A stretch of DNA of 64,000 nt from NCBI RefSeq assembly GCF_005877885.1, contig NZ_VCHY01000007.1, positions 1-64,000 of the forward strand. The letters run 5' to 3'. Under the pieces are notes generated by a model. The model was not told the DNA's origin. It was given only the letters and a program-made list of their open reading frames with translations, and did not search any database. The position numbers and the translations under genes are program-made. Each line of letters begins with the position of its first letter. The stretch's first letter is position 1. Below, one piece after another: positions 20,085-25,001 of the stretch. Source of the stretch: Labilibacter sediminis (GTDB lineage Bacteria > Bacteroidota > Bacteroidia > Bacteroidales > Marinilabiliaceae).

Positions 20085-21881
20085 TCAGGCAATTACGCCA
20101 GATTTTTTGATGGATTCAACCATATGATAGAATACACCCTTTTGGCCTAATAATTCTTTTGGCGTTCCATCTTCAGCTATTCCTTGTTGATCAAGCACAA
20201 CAACTCTATCTACCAAACGAATGGTTGATAAACGATGACTCACAATAACAGCCGTTCTTCCTTTAGATATCTCTTTAAAATTCTCAATTAAACGAGATTC
20301 TGTAAAAGCATCTAACGAACTCGTTGGCTCGTCCAAGATAACTACCTGTGCATTATTAAAAAATGAACGCGACAAAGCCATCCGCTGCCACTCGCCTACA
20401 CTTAACATCTCACTGTCTTTAAACAATGTTCCTAAAGTTGTTTCATAACCTTGTGGCAATTCTTTAAGCAACTTATCTACGCCTGATTTTTTAGCACTCT
20501 CATATATGTCATCGTCCCCAACTGATCGCTTTGTATTTCCAAACCATATGTTTTCCCTTGCCGATACGTTATAAAGCATAAAATCCTGAAAAACAACACT
20601 TATATTTTCGGAAATTGATTCTTTTCTAACCTCATTCAGGTCTACCTCATCCACAAAAATGTTTCCCTGCGTGGGTTCATACAAACCACACAACAGTTTT
20701 ACCAAGGTAGATTTCCCGGCTCCGTTAGCACCTACCAAAGCAATAGTTTCGCCAGGTTTTATTTTTAAGTTGATATTCTCAAAAACACTTCGACTACTAT
20801 TGGGATAATTAAAACTTACATTATTTAATTGTATAGACTGATTGATCTGAGCGGGGAAAACAGAAAAGGTATCTTTTTGTTTTTTTATCACTTTATAATC
20901 TATAAACTCAAAAAAGTTCCTCAAAAACAATCCATCCTCATACAATCCTGATATTCGAACCAATAATTCCTGCAAAAACGAATATCCTCTATAAAGAGCC
21001 AGAAAAAACATCACCATCTCACCTTGAGAAATATTTCCCTCTATGGCTGCAACCGCAATATAACCAAACACAAAAATTAAAGCCAGTGCTGTTAAAACCT
21101 GCAACACAAACTCATATTGAGTTTTAAACTTTAATAATTTAAGCTGATAAGATCTTAATTCATCCTTTAATTTTTCATATCTCGATTTAAACAAAGATGC
21201 CAAATTAAAAACCCGCAACTCCTTGGCAAATTCTTTGCCCGTTAAAAGCCTGTTGTAATAATTTACAGTTCTTTCCGCTTCAGTATGTTCACGCTTTAGA
21301 GCAAATGTTTTTCTTGAGAACCTTAAACGAATAAACACGATAGGCAGAGATATAGCGACTAAAATAATCACCATTACCCAATGCAGACTTGCCAATAGTC
21401 CCGCAATTAAGAATAAGGTTATACTATTTTGAATAAGGCCGACAAAACCATAAAAAATTCTTGTAGGTCTATACGAAGCTTCACTAACTGCTCTATAGTA
21501 TATGTTCTGGAAGTTATAATCCTCATAATTCGCAAAATCAAGTGTGGTTGTCCTGGCATGAATCATATCCTGCACCCTGTCATTTATAAAGTAAGATTGC
21601 TTTTCGCGAACAATACCGGCAATAGAACTTAAAATTGCATTTAATACAAATACAGCACCTGCATATATAAGCACTCGATATACCGTTTCATAATTCTGAC
21701 TTTGATTACCTGATTGAATAACAGAAGAAACCTCATCAACCAATAATTTTATTAAAAAGATTAACAGCAATGGCATTATTCCCTTTAACAAAACCACTAC
21801 TGCGTTAAGCAAACTCCAATAAGTTGAACTTTGCCAAACAATATCGAGCGATCGGAAAATATTGCTTTTCTTAACCTTCAT
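20085..21881 (-). CDS. ABC transporter, fused permease and ATPase
   Basis: A 598-residue half-transporter of the exporter type. Six TM helices lie in residues about 20-310. The ATPase domain has Walker A GANGAGKST (384-392), Q-loop VVFQDF, signature LSVGEWQ (493-499), Walker B VVILDEP (513-519) and the switch His in IVSHR. There is no N-terminal C39 peptidase domain. It would work as a homodimer at the inner membrane. It is the last gene of the minus-strand set PqqD-like, peptide, HprK-like, S26 peptidase, transporter, so export of the modified peptide is the natural guess. The signature SVGEWQ differs slightly from the usual LSGGQ. Confidence 0.9.
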   Translation of the reverse strand: MKVKKSNIFRSLDIVWQSSTYWSLLNAVVVLLKGIMPLLLIFLIKLLVDEVSSVIQSGNQSQNYETVYRVLIYAGAVFVLNAILSSIAGIVREKQSYFINDRVQDMIHARTTTLDFANYEDYNFQNIYYRAVSEASYRPTRIFYGFVGLIQNSITLFLIAGLLASLHWVMVIILVAISLPIVFIRLRFSRKTFALKREHTEAERTVNYYNRLLTGKEFAKELRVFNLASLFKSRYEKLKDELRSYQLKLLKFKTQYEFVLQVLTALALIFVFGYIAVAAIEGNISQGEMVMFFLALYRGYSFLQELLVRISGLYEDGLFLRNFFEFIDYKVIKKQKDTFSVFPAQINQSIQLNNVSFNYPNSSRSVFENINLKIKPGETIALVGANGAGKSTLVKLLCGLYEPTQGNIFVDEVDLNEVRKESISENISVVFQDFMLYNVSARENIWFGNTKRSVGDDDIYESAKKSGVDKLLKELPQGYETTLGTLFKDSEMLSVGEWQRMALSRSFFNNAQVVILDEPTSSLDAFTESRLIENFKEISKGRTAVIVSHRLSTIRLVDRVVVLDQQGIAEDGTPKELLGQKGVFYHMVESIKKSGVIA

Positions 21882-21944
21882 AATTAAATAAACCTATCCT
21901 TTTAACAAATAAGAGCCAAAAGATAATAAAACACATGATTAAAA

Positions 21945-22406
21945 TTATTTACGAACGGAATATTTTATCCATAACCTGGAAAGAGGATAACTTAAGTACC
22001 CTGTTAAAGGGGTAACAAACACAATTAAACGCCTGAATAAAGGATTATTTATAAACTTAAGCTCAACACCTTTACGAAAATGCGTACAAACAACGGCCTT
22101 AATATCATCTACATTTATGGAGGAATCAAACTTTTGTAGACCATCACCCTTAGTAAGGGCAATATTGTTTTCAAAATCTATTTTTAATAACCTATGCGCA
22201 ACCAGCCTTTTCTTAGACAGAAAAACAACAACACTTCCTATTTTTAGATTATGTGATTTAGCTTTTTCTACCCGCACCAGATCACCAGGCAAATAAAAAG
22301 GAAACATACTTAAACCATACACCGGAATATCTACAAAATGATCTTTATCCAACATAGATAAAAAAGTAGAGTTTATAACCTTTGTATGACGAGATATTTT
22401 GGCCAC
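21945..22406 (-). CDS. S24/S26-type serine peptidase (signal peptidase-like)
   Basis: A 153-residue protein starting at GTG. GLSMFPFYLPGDLV carries the nucleophile Ser33 as in signal peptidases, and LVAHRLL carries His71, the general-base position of the Ser/His (S26B, SipW/archaeal-like) subgroup. There is no N-terminal TM helix; a weakly hydrophobic stretch near residues 127-145 may associate with the membrane. The start codon shares its first G with the stop of the kinase gene (TAGTG), implying translational coupling. In this locus it could remove a leader from the 71-residue peptide; that is inference. Confidence 0.75.
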   Translation of the reverse strand: MAKISRHTKVINSTFLSMLDKDHFVDIPVYGLSMFPFYLPGDLVRVEKAKSHNLKIGSVVVFLSKKRLVAHRLLKIDFENNIALTKGDGLQKFDSSINVDDIKAVVCTHFRKGVELKFINNPLFRRLIVFVTPLTGYLSYPLSRLWIKYSVRK

Positions 22407-23311
22407 TATTCCATAGATTTTATCATATCAACAATATCCTGATCAGGCTTAAAGCCAACTTCATAAACATCAACTATCCCTAAAACATCTTCAACAATTT
22501 CAAGATGCTTTTTAACCATAGATTGTTGATAAAATTGTTGAATAAAGTTACCCAATACACGTGAATATGCAGCTACTCCTTTTAAAGGTTTTATATAATT
22601 ATCCGGCGATTGCTTAAGTAGAAAAATCTTTTTTAATTCTCCTTCTCGTGGGTGCTGTTGATAATATGGCATTGGATTATTATATACCATCACTTTTTTT
22701 CCAACCTTCCTCATAACCAATCTATCGTCATTTAAAACCTGCACTCCTGATTCTGACCATAACTTTGCCATAGTTGATTTTCCAATGCCTGAAACTCCAG
22801 TAAAAACAAATGCTTTTTGACCATACACCACACCTGACGCATGTATTAAAAGCGCTTCTTTCCAATGCATTAAATACAGCAGAATCAAAGATCCCAGGGG
22901 ATGAATAAGTGGATCCAGAACAACTTTTTGATCACAACCATGATGTAATAGCACATTAACATTAACCATGCTACTAACCGAAGATACCTTAGCCGAAACA
23001 ACCTTTATTTGTTCATGATCCTCAAAGAATACTACTAAATAAATATCATTTAGTGTCTGGTAAACTTTCCATTTATAGTTAAGCACCTCATTATCACGGG
23101 GCTCTCCTGCAAATACAAGATTTAAATTTGAATCATCAAAAGATGATACAATATCGTAAGTAATGTTATAATCTGCTGGTTTTTTTGACTTGGATGTAAT
23201 AAAATGCTTTACGCCTCCTTCAGAATGAAGAATAAGCTGTTGGCTACTCGATTGACAGCCAATAAGAAGATCTGCAATCTTAAGATAAAATCCCTTTGGC
23301 ATATCATCCAT
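22406..23311 (-). CDS. HPr kinase-like ATP-binding protein, candidate peptide kinase
   Basis: A 301-residue protein whose C-terminal half matches the HPr kinase fold: LLIHASGVV (H157), P-loop GVSGIGKST (172-180) and the Asp pair LNDDRLV (D195, D196). The N-terminal half (1-145) is a divergent beta-rich region. HprK relatives in lasso-peptide clusters (ThcoK type) phosphorylate a serine of the precursor, and similar genes accompany PqqD-like proteins. Here the gene directly follows a Ser-rich small peptide gene by 15 bp and precedes the S26 peptidase with a 1-base overlap. HPr itself is an unlikely substrate in this context. Confidence 0.75.
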   Translation of the reverse strand: MDDMPKGFYLKIADLLIGCQSSSQQLILHSEGGVKHFITSKSKKPADYNITYDIVSSFDDSNLNLVFAGEPRDNEVLNYKWKVYQTLNDIYLVVFFEDHEQIKVVSAKVSSVSSMVNVNVLLHHGCDQKVVLDPLIHPLGSLILLYLMHWKEALLIHASGVVYGQKAFVFTGVSGIGKSTMAKLWSESGVQVLNDDRLVMRKVGKKVMVYNNPMPYYQQHPREGELKKIFLLKQSPDNYIKPLKGVAAYSRVLGNFIQQFYQQSMVKKHLEIVEDVLGIVDVYEVGFKPDQDIVDMIKSME

Positions 23312-23326
23312 TATACTTGAGTAATC

Positions 23327-23542
23327 TTAATAATCCGGCGAAGAACCTCCAAAAGGATCGTTCTCAAAAGAAGGCGGTGAAGACTCTATTGGTGAAGACT
23401 CTGAAGGAGGCAAAACTTCTTGGGCGGCTCCTGGGTCGACAGGAGGGCTTGTAGCCATAACCAAAGAAATTTCGCTATCCACTTCAATCACCTCAAGCAC
23501 CGGCTTCGAATATACTTTTCTATTTTTATTAATCCTTTTCAT
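23327..23542 (-). CDS. 71-residue Ser/Pro-rich peptide, candidate RiPP-like precursor
   Basis: The N-terminal half is basic then amphipathic (KVYSKPVLEVIEVDSEISLV, residues 9-28), as expected for a leader recognised by a PqqD-like protein. From residue 32 the sequence becomes Pro/Ser/Asp-rich: PPVDPG, then PPSESSPIESSPPS, ending NDPFGGSSPDY. It contains no Cys, so lanthionine or sactionine chemistry is excluded. Eight or more serines sit in acidic or proline contexts beside a kinase gene. It lies between the PqqD-like gene (23 bp) and the kinase gene (15 bp). Small size and position make the precursor role plausible; it is unproven. Confidence 0.6.
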   Translation of the reverse strand: MKRINKNRKVYSKPVLEVIEVDSEISLVMATSPPVDPGAAQEVLPPSESSPIESSPPSFENDPFGGSSPDY

Positions 23543-23565
23543 TCAGTTGTAATCCTATTCCTAAA

Positions 23566-23856
23566 CTATTGTTTGGTGAATAAAACTCCTCTATTAACCG
23601 AGTCTGTTATAAATAGTTCAATATCTTTCTTTACTATTTCTGCACTTACATTATACTCCTCCAACAACAAATTAAATATGTCAGTTACAGATCTCACGCC
23701 ATCTACTTGTTCAAAAATAAACGCCGCTACATCATTCAATGTAAATACATGGTTCATATCGGCTACATTATCCGACAATGGCACCAATACCTTTTCATCC
23801 CCTATGCTTTTCTCAACAAAACTTTTACTCTTGTGGTAAACAACAGAAAAATCCAT
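23566..23856 (-). CDS. PqqD-like RRE (peptide-binding) protein
   Basis: A 96-residue stand-alone PqqD domain: a VPLSDNVADMNHVFTLNDVA strand-helix segment, FIFEQVDGVRSVTDIFNLLL, then EEYNVSAEIVKKDIELFI and a final RGVLF. The family binds leader peptides of ribosomal natural products and presents them to the modifying enzyme. A longer ORF begins at TTG 23880, but that codon falls within the TACTTTTG promoter element (23878-23885), so ATG 23856 (MDFSVVYHKS) is the better start. First gene of the five-gene minus-strand set. Confidence 0.8.
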   Translation of the reverse strand: MDFSVVYHKSKSFVEKSIGDEKVLVPLSDNVADMNHVFTLNDVAAFIFEQVDGVRSVTDIFNLLLEEYNVSAEIVKKDIELFITDSVNRGVLFTKQ

Positions 23857-23877
23857 CCTATTTTTAAAATTATCGAA

Positions 23878-23885
23878 CAAAAGTA
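23878..23885 (-). promoter_or_regulatory. Promoter -7 element of the peptide locus
   Basis: TACTTTTG on the minus strand matches TAnnTTTG and would start transcription near 23871, 15 nt before the preferred ATG of the PqqD-like gene. A TTG at 23909-23911 (minus sense) is 23 bp upstream, a little far for -33. Confidence 0.5.
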
Positions 23886-23981: not shown

Positions 23982-25001
23982 TTAAAAAACCACTCTCGAA
24001 AAAGGTGCAACACTATGATCTACAAACTGCTTTTCTTCATACTTAAAATAACCTGTTACAGCTATCATTGCAGCATTGTCGGTGGTATACGCAAACTTAG
24101 GTATAAAGGTTTTCCATTTTTTTCTTTTTGCTAACATTTCTAACCCATTCCTTAATCCGGAATTCGCCGAAACCCCACCTGCTAATGCAATCTGATTTAT
24201 TTTTAAATCTTTAGCCGCCAGTTCCAGTTTATTCAATAGAATATCTATAATTGTTTTTTGAAGCGAAGCACAAAGATCTTTCTTATTTTCTTCAATAAAA
24301 TCCGGATTAACTTTTAATTGATCTCGTAAGAAGTAAAGAAATGAGGTTTTAAGCCCACTAAAACTATAGTCATAATTTTTAATGCGGGGTTTAGAAAAAA
24401 TAAATGCTTCAGGGTTACCTTCCTTGGCCAATTTATCAATTAACGGTCCACCGGGATAAGGCAATCCCATCACTTTTGCACATTTATCAAAAGCCTCTCC
24501 GGCTGCATCATCAATAGTTTGACCAACTACTTCCATTTCGGTATAACTCTTCACCAAAACTATCTGGCTATTACCTCCTGACACCAACAAACATATGAAT
24601 GGGAATTCAGGGTGCTCTGTAGCTTCATCGGGCTCCTTAATAAAATGAGCCAACACATGGGCGTGTAAATGGTTAACTTCTATCAAAGGAATATCATTAG
24701 CCAGCGCAAACCCTTTTGCAAAAGAGGTTCCTACCAGAAGCGATCCCATTAATCCCGGTCCGCGAGTAAATGCCACTGCATCAATCTGCGAAGCCGTTAC
24801 TCCGGCATCCTTTAAGGCCTTATCTACAACAGGTATAATATTTTGCTGATGCGCTCTTGAAGCCAGCTCAGGTACAACACCACCATATTCCATATGTACA
24901 TCCTGATTGGCTATTTTATTAGATAAAATAGTATCATCTTTAAACACTGCTGCAGATGTGTCGTCGCAGGAAGATTCAATACCTAAAATATATGCACTCA
25001 T
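23982..25001 (-). CDS. tsaD: tRNA N6-adenosine threonylcarbamoyltransferase TsaD
   Basis: A 339-residue ASKHA-fold enzyme that transfers threonylcarbamoyl from TC-AMP to A37 of ANN-decoding tRNAs, with TsaB and TsaE. GIESSCDDTSAAV is the N-terminal phosphate loop, HLHAHVLAH provides the metal His pair (HxxxH), LLVSGGNSQIVLV and GGPLIDKLAKEG are nucleotide-binding elements, and the terminal Asp lies in YTTDNAAMIA. Divergent from the TamB-like gene. Full length and canonical. Confidence 0.97.
   Translation of the reverse strand: MSAYILGIESSCDDTSAAVFKDDTILSNKIANQDVHMEYGGVVPELASRAHQQNIIPVVDKALKDAGVTASQIDAVAFTRGPGLMGSLLVGTSFAKGFALANDIPLIEVNHLHAHVLAHFIKEPDEATEHPEFPFICLLVSGGNSQIVLVKSYTEMEVVGQTIDDAAGEAFDKCAKVMGLPYPGGPLIDKLAKEGNPEAFIFSKPRIKNYDYSFSGLKTSFLYFLRDQLKVNPDFIEENKKDLCASLQKTIIDILLNKLELAAKDLKINQIALAGGVSANSGLRNGLEMLAKRKKWKTFIPKFAYTTDNAAMIAVTGYFKYEEKQFVDHSVAPFSRVVF

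Follow-up and report, generated by a model that had tools for sequence, protein, structure and literature searches.

What might a bacterium make with a PqqD-type protein, a small peptide, an HprK-like kinase, a signal peptidase, and an exporter that are encoded side by side? The question is raised by a locus of Labilibacter sediminis on contig NZ_VCHY01000007.1, within the stretch of 64,000 nt analyzed here (the window, to whose full length all coordinates refer). Judging by homology and gene order, we consider it probable that this locus is a Bacteroidota form of the pathway for linear polyphosphorylated peptides (LPPs). These are ribosomally synthesized and post-translationally modified peptides (RiPPs) of Bacillota, whose machinery comprises a RiPP recognition element (RRE), an HprK-like kinase, a SipW-like peptidase, an MsbA-like exporter, and a nucleoside triphosphate (NTP) transferase (PMC13381572). 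Further precursors with the same leader are encoded at a distance from these genes, mostly right behind genes for large proteins of the type IX secretion system (T9SS).

RESULTS

Enzymes of the locus

All five open reading frames (ORFs) lie on the minus strand with intergenic gaps of 23, 15, and 63 bp, and the GTG start of the S26 peptidase gene overlaps the kinase stop codon by one base (TAGTG). An earlier note, made from the letters of the DNA alone, had given these genes, their strand, the gaps, and the overlap, all of which our ORF check reproduced exactly. It had placed the PqqD start at TTG 23880, in a longer ORF (23566-23880). Since most same-genus relatives start at the ATG equivalent to 23856, the PqqD-type protein most likely begins at ATG 23856, with TTG 23880 an improbable start, and comprises 96 amino acids (23566..23856, minus strand).

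This protein, the putative RRE, matches the Pfam family PqqD with an E value of 1e-14. Its residues Asn49, Asp86, and Phe90, kept in 20/20, 19/20, and 20/20 alignment rows, align to N33, D70, and F74 of LppB, with a numbering offset of 18 that was taken from the agreement of the three residues themselves. N33, D70, and F74 are leader-contact residues of LppB (PMC13381572).

The kinase (22406..23311, minus strand, 301 aa) is, as its AlphaFold2 model (pLDDT of 93.2) indicates, a protein of the HprK/PEPCK fold with an intact active site. HPr kinase and PEPCK are the top PDB matches of the model (E value of 4.7e-6, probability of 1.00, and low TM-scores of 0.3 to 0.4, calculated for the query), and His157, the Walker A motif SGxGK, Asp195, and Asp196 are present in 33/33 rows. 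The match to the HprK-related kinase model TIGR04355 has an E value of 1.5e-7 and 30.9 bits at a cut-off of 200. An ordinary HPr kinase was rejected on the score against Hpr_kinase_C, which at 15.3 bits is far under the cut-off of 33.3. Kinase homologs in genomes G217, G237, G245, G261, and G312 lie in open frames of 659 to 687 aa, suggesting fusion with another domain.

The candidate leader peptidase (21945..22406, minus strand, 153 aa from a GTG start) is a putative signal peptidase I of the SipW/archaeal type. It scores 47.5 bits against TIGR02228 of the archaeal/Sec11 type (E value of 1.7e-12), just under the cut-off of 51.85; its Ser33, His71, and Asp88 are conserved in 23/23 aligned rows, and its best PDB relatives are SEC11C and SEC11A. 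The last gene encodes a putative ATP-binding cassette (ABC) exporter (20085..21881, minus strand, 598 aa), which matches ABC_tran with an E value of 4.7e-34 and the MsbA model TIGR02203 with an E value of 5.2e-81, under the cut-off of that model. A discrete RRE with its contact residues, an intact HprK-like kinase, an archaeal/SipW peptidase with Ser, His, and Asp, and an MsbA-like exporter are thus the traits of LPP pathways found in this locus.

Precursor peptides and their leader

The small gene between RRE and kinase (23327..23542, minus strand) encodes a putative precursor of 71 aa, composed of a leader (YSKPVL...D...ISLVMAT), an acidic core rich in Pro and Ser, and the tail NDPFGGSSPDY; leader and tail, the latter as PFGG..P.Y, are its constant parts. 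Y11, P14, and D22 are invariant in a 24-row alignment, in which residue 31 is Ser or Thr in 24/24. The codons of the gene look constrained, with a median ratio of nonsynonymous to synonymous differences (pN/pS) of 0.54 over 36 within-genus pairs. No family matched the precursor except, weakly, the NCBIfam model PadeA of the paeninodin lasso precursor (residues 8 to 21, E value of 0.03).

Among 61 genomes, namely that of L. sediminis and those of relatives, the precursor profile matched 35/37 genomes of the family of L. sediminis (same-family genomes below) and genome G048, and found no match in the other 23 relatives (E value of ≤0.05). Two or more precursors are encoded in 32/36 precursor-positive genomes. 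As one leader is common to several precursors per genome, a single set of enzymes, which we term the hub, presumably acts in trans on dispersed precursors.

Leaders were aligned on an anchor of Y..[PA] followed by D at a distance of 9 to 12 residues from Y. On this anchor 78/80 precursors align gap-free (L224 and L225 were dropped), with P at +3 in 76 and D at +11 in 75, both positions being favored by the anchor. Y+20 lies outside the anchor and bears a hydroxyl residue in 76/78 precursors (49 Ser and 27 Thr; one Ala and one Pro); with the looser anchor Y..P alone, Ser or Thr is found there in 77/79. The second-best hydroxyl column, at +15, reaches 68%. The sequence right after Y+20 is variable and rich in Pro, Asp, and Gly. 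The Ser/Thr at Y+20 may serve as P1 in leader cleavage, as [T/A]-1 does in LPPs, or as a phosphoacceptor.

The cores have a median length of 41 aa and a median net charge of -5, being negative in 73/78, and [NDSTVY]P[FL] occurs within the final 16 residues of 72/78. Tails of hub-linked precursors follow PFGGxxPxY, those of T9SS-linked precursors mostly NPFxx. Cores that resemble WxPGDGKPPGPPG or are rich in Gly and Pro were seen in L198, L210, L204, L212, and L221, none of which lies behind a T9SS gene.

Distribution and gene order

The kinase system belongs to the core genome of the family and is not patchy. A kinase match (E value of ≤0.001) was obtained in 40/61 genomes and in 36/37 same-family genomes, with one copy in each; the genome without a match, G021, is 72% complete. 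At cut-offs of ≤1e-20 for the kinase and ≤0.05 for the precursor, 35 of the 61 genomes have both, 2 the kinase only (G012 and G036), 1 the precursor only (G021), and 23 neither, a weak precursor-like match by the kinase of G055 (E value of 0.07) being scored as negative.

Gene order was compared in 35 same-family loci, that is, 34 of the 38 loci fetched and the locus of L. sediminis; G024, with a cut contig, was left out. In 24 of these 35 loci the precursor gene lies between the PqqD and kinase genes. The earlier note had staked its proposal on a peptide gene that is conserved in this place, and so it is in these 24 loci. Together with the constrained codons of the peptide, this position argues that the association of the five genes is not due to chance. 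The precursor is unlinked and located elsewhere in six genomes (G009, G011, G020, G025, G029, and G035), G026 has a precursor of the second type, and in G036 the profile search found no precursor anywhere in the genome. A 543-aa ORF, transposase-like by eye, stands between the PqqD and kinase genes in the locus of G035 (L045).

The S26 peptidase gene is relocated away from the kinase in 12/15 same-family genomes tested. It is single in 14/15, occurring in two pieces in G035, and also in G048; the exception, G022, is 76% complete. The peptidase was found in 0/3 genomes lacking the kinase. An exporter match lies within 1.5 kb of the relocated gene in 4/12 genomes, in one of them on the opposite strand. 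The parts are separable, with the S26 gene relocated, the precursor unlinked, and extra precursors elsewhere in the genomes, which rules out the closed five-gene cluster that the earlier note had pictured. In G048 (L062), peptidase and exporter form a single frame of 746 aa, whose contig also carries an NTP_transf_5 gene in the opposite orientation.

In a sample of the phylum, the kinase profile matched 23/296 genomes (E value of ≤1e-8), many over the P-loop region alone. The 63 named kinase loci are mostly from Marinilabiliaceae (Saccharicrinis, Labilibacter, Plebeiobacterium, Carboxylicivirga, Marinilabilia, Alkaliflexus, and others), and they include gut Bacteroidales metagenome-assembled genomes (MAGs) and seven Clostridia MAGs. 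In 7/7 of the Clostridia loci a YxxP peptide gene is situated 16 to 374 bp upstream of the kinase frame, as found by a looser motif scan without a shuffled control, in which 4 other matching ORFs were taken as chance; the strict LPP leader motif was found in none of the 7. With kinase, exporter, PqqD, S26, and YxxP peptide genes, these loci (L125 to L131) are possibly a further LPP-like branch.

The gene for the tRNA modification protein TsaD (23982..25001, minus strand) is the conserved upstream neighbor and a syntenic marker outside the pathway. Upstream of PqqD it is the first gene with a match, in the same orientation, in 30/35 same-family loci, and it stands in the same role in 43/63 named loci, a set that overlaps the 35. 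TsaD-PqqD-peptide-kinase-S26-ABC is the commonest order, found in 23/63 named loci, many of them from the same organisms.

Precursors behind genes of T9SS proteins

The second precursor of L. sediminis is encoded 33 bp behind the gene for a 1930-aa protein with immunoglobulin-like repeats and a T9SS sorting domain. Of the non-hub precursor matches, only G024:C155, at the edge of its contig, was left out; the others yielded 56 precursor-like ORFs, of which L224 is probably false. For 45/56, an ORF of at least 150 aa on the same strand ends within 400 bp upstream, in 37 cases within 60 bp. TIGR04183, the T9SS type A sorting domain, was detected in 38/45 of these upstream ORFs (E value of ≤0.05). 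As a background, a profile built from their C termini matched 10/355 complete ORFs in hub loci and 2/107 in NTP-transferase loci. In five loci that were scanned for what follows the T9SS-linked precursor, the next gene is a housekeeping or glycosyltransferase-like one that changes from genus to genus, so that T9SS gene and precursor look like a unit of two genes.

A C-terminal module of 474 aa is common to 31 precursor-linked proteins, and the end of the modeled module matches the C-terminal domains of the T9SS cargo proteins RemZ, RemA, and RgpB. The top PDB match of the module in a fold search was an S-layer protein, with a poor alignment (TM-score of 0.14). Of the 39 module proteins scoring above 400 bits, 35 have a precursor directly behind; 31 of these 35 built the model, and the linkage was therefore set aside as evidence. 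Among 8 module proteins outside the model, 4 have a precursor behind and 3 do not (G011:C31:4413, G029:C17:17775, and G035:C160:7764); the remaining one (G020:C157) is at the edge of its contig. A fold search against viral proteins gave one strong match to the module (E value of 3.6e-26), a 587-aa protein of a marine phage annotated as "putative hemin binding protein" (BFVD A0A8D9C8P8), which aligns over most of its length.

Just beyond five of the six unlinked hub-type precursors lies a long ORF (2325 to 2627 aa), which is convergent in three cases. ORFs resembling the giant L150 occur (BLAST E value of ≤1e-8) in the fetched stretches of 7/8 hub loci from the same genus and in those of several further genera; profile searches found no L150-like ORF in the window.

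DISCUSSION

With homology to LPP biosynthesis as a guide, the RRE would bind the YxKPxL motif in the leader of the 71-aa precursor and present the precursor to the HprK-fold kinase, which would phosphorylate the peptide. Cleavage by the SipW-like serine peptidase, most likely directly behind the Ser/Thr at Y+20, would free the core from its leader, and this linear, acidic peptide of ~40 aa would pass the inner membrane by way of the MsbA-like exporter. This one enzyme set would work in trans on the other precursors sharing the leader. The product would most likely act at the cell surface with T9SS-secreted proteins, which is the least certain part of our reading.

The earlier note had proposed a distinct, cyclase-free class. 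What the locus appears to encode is indeed a peptide pathway that is guided by PqqD, does without a cyclase, and includes an HprK-like kinase, a leader peptidase, and an exporter; the class itself, with nearly these parts, is already in print (PMC13381572). What is new is an LPP-like system outside Bacillota. New as well are its place in the core genome of a family, the several precursors per genome with one common leader, and the position of most non-hub precursors behind T9SS genes. LPPs were described as restricted to Bacillota, patchy, and often near capsule loci, and words starting with "Bacteroid" are absent from the main text of that publication (PMC13381572). A paper on RiPPs of Bacteroidales mentions neither HPr nor S24 (PMC10352776).

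Several observations weigh against assignment of the locus to the LPP type. Its leader departs from the LPP consensus YxxPxVLxHQxIxFETxxS: YxxPx[LIV] is shared, and neither the sequence nor the spacing of the lower half agrees. In LPPs, the kinase phosphorylates the core residue Ser3 several times, Thr being no substitute, and the peptidase cuts after Thr-1 (PMC13381572). No conserved Ser is found at the matching core place here, and the sole near-constant hydroxyl is Ser or Thr. An NTP transferase is not encoded in the locus, and the copy of its family PF14907 in L. sediminis is on another contig. PF14907 was found in 23/25 same-family genomes, with two copies in G010 and G012, and on the hub contig in G048; it is also present without the kinase, and its neighborhood, not being conserved over 9 loci, was rejected as a lead. 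In G012 and G036, which carry the kinase, the precursor profile finds no precursor. In the profile ranking of solved RREs, the lasso proteins TbiB1 (8.1e-9) and PbaB1 (1.9e-8) score above LppB, which is third (5.7e-8), and many lasso and PQQ RREs share the kept Asn and Asp (PMC13381572). The RRE is therefore no proof of LPP membership.

This proximity to lasso B1 proteins, together with a leader that resembles lasso leaders in the PadeA match, could speak for a reduced lasso cluster with a lasso product, its cyclase and B2 protease being encoded elsewhere. We consider this highly improbable and rejected it for want of a B2 protease and for the weakness of the PadeA matches. The B2 protease family PF13471 has no match in the genome of L. 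sediminis and exceeds its cut-off in 0/25 same-family genomes (G002 stays below it, with 22.4 versus 26 bits), and a SipW-like peptidase takes the place of B2. PadeA matches 4/32 precursors, all weakly, and no constant Asp/Glu column exists at core positions 7 to 9. The earlier note had already remarked on the absence of lasso enzymes from the locus, and this holds: the five proteins contain no Asn-synthetase-like cyclase domain and no spare ORF lies between them, the rest of the genome not having been searched for a cyclase.

Returning to the LPP-type pathway, its product can be thought of in different ways. Tentatively, we suggest that the phosphopeptides are dedicated partners of T9SS proteins, co-encoded with them and matured in trans by the hub, and that the phosphorylated acidic core and PF tail would bind or tether the C-terminal module of the cargo at the outer membrane. 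To our knowledge, no small gene for an RRE-leader precursor has been described beside T9SS cargo, and we recognized no report of a T9SS link of such precursors in the literature searched, which leaves out most subscription papers. Some findings are at odds with this partnership. At an E value of ≤0.05, 7/45 upstream ORFs lack a T9SS domain, and the Pfam model finds the domain in 22/45. The other 11 non-hub precursor ORFs have no upstream ORF that near, and the hub-type precursors outside the hub (G009, G011, G020, G025, G029, and G035) are not behind T9SS genes. The module is present in 79/296 genomes of the phylum sample (E value of ≤1e-20), compared with 23/296 for the kinase, and was discarded as a specific marker of the pathway for being commoner. 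Moreover, profile searches of the 64-kb window found no such T9SS C terminus.

The lack of a T9SS neighbor to the copy in the window, the typical RiPP set of RRE, kinase, leader peptidase, and exporter, and the strong variability of the core sequences would also suit an ordinary RiPP, secreted as a signal or as an antimicrobial, next to which T9SS genes are incidental or merely co-expressed. We regard such a peptide as rather unlikely: nearly all genomes of one family have the system, in a single copy and mostly in synteny, in contrast to the patchy LPP loci (PMC13381572), the C-terminal PF motif is kept in 72/78 cores, and T9SS genes occur upstream of precursors far above background. HprK homologs are regulatory kinases, and the kinase might itself be mainly regulatory: its phosphorylation of the leader end, or of some other protein, would then govern processing or secretion, and the end product would not be a phosphopeptide. 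The position of the sole near-constant hydroxyl at the leader end would agree with this, as would the finding that unmodified LPP precursor is a poor substrate of its peptidase (PMC13381572). Nevertheless, with a peptide gene shortly before the kinase gene both here and in 7/7 Clostridia loci, and with the phosphate of LPPs located on the core (PMC13381572), a mainly regulatory kinase appears distinctly unlikely.

If the T9SS partnership is true, a RiPP would act in the structure or assembly of the cell surface, which would be new for such peptides, and a role of this kind would fit the frequent position of LPP loci beside capsule loci in Bacillota (PMC13381572). With its precursors behind T9SS genes, a near-universal system offers a concrete way to test, in environmental bacteria already in culture, how such peptides may be linked to the cell surface. 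The LPP-type class would extend beyond Bacillota, and one maturation hub appears to serve dispersed precursors, an arrangement that genome mining by clusters would overlook.

Among known systems, HPr kinase/phosphorylase (HprK) has the same fold and catalytic residues as the kinase described here, which differs by its family score below the cut-off and by its locus with RRE and peptide. T9SS type A cargo proteins such as RemA and RgpB share the C-terminal sorting domain with the large precursor-linked proteins. The phosphorylated lasso peptides of the paeninodin type likewise have an HprK-like kinase, a PqqD-like RRE, and a related leader motif (in part from PMC13381572). They differ in that here a B2 protease was not found by the PF13471 searches, a cyclase is not encoded in the locus, and the leader motif has Tyr instead of Trp; the RRE has Asn where paeninodin RREs have Gly (PMC13381572). 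Closest are the LPPs, studied by experiment in Paenibacillus alginolyticus (lpp cluster; PMC13381572; PDB 9x8z). Common to both systems are a discrete RRE with the three leader-contact residues, an HprK-like kinase, a leader peptidase of the archaeal/SipW type, an MsbA-like exporter, a YxxP leader, a variable core, and the cyclase-free make-up. Unlike LPPs, the precursors described here have D+11 and ISLxMx[ST]+20 in the lower leader in place of HQxIxFETxxS, and an acidic core with a PF tail, and further precursors lie mostly behind T9SS genes. Unlike the LPP loci, too, the system belongs to Bacteroidota, where it is near-universal in one family and has its hub split in many genera.

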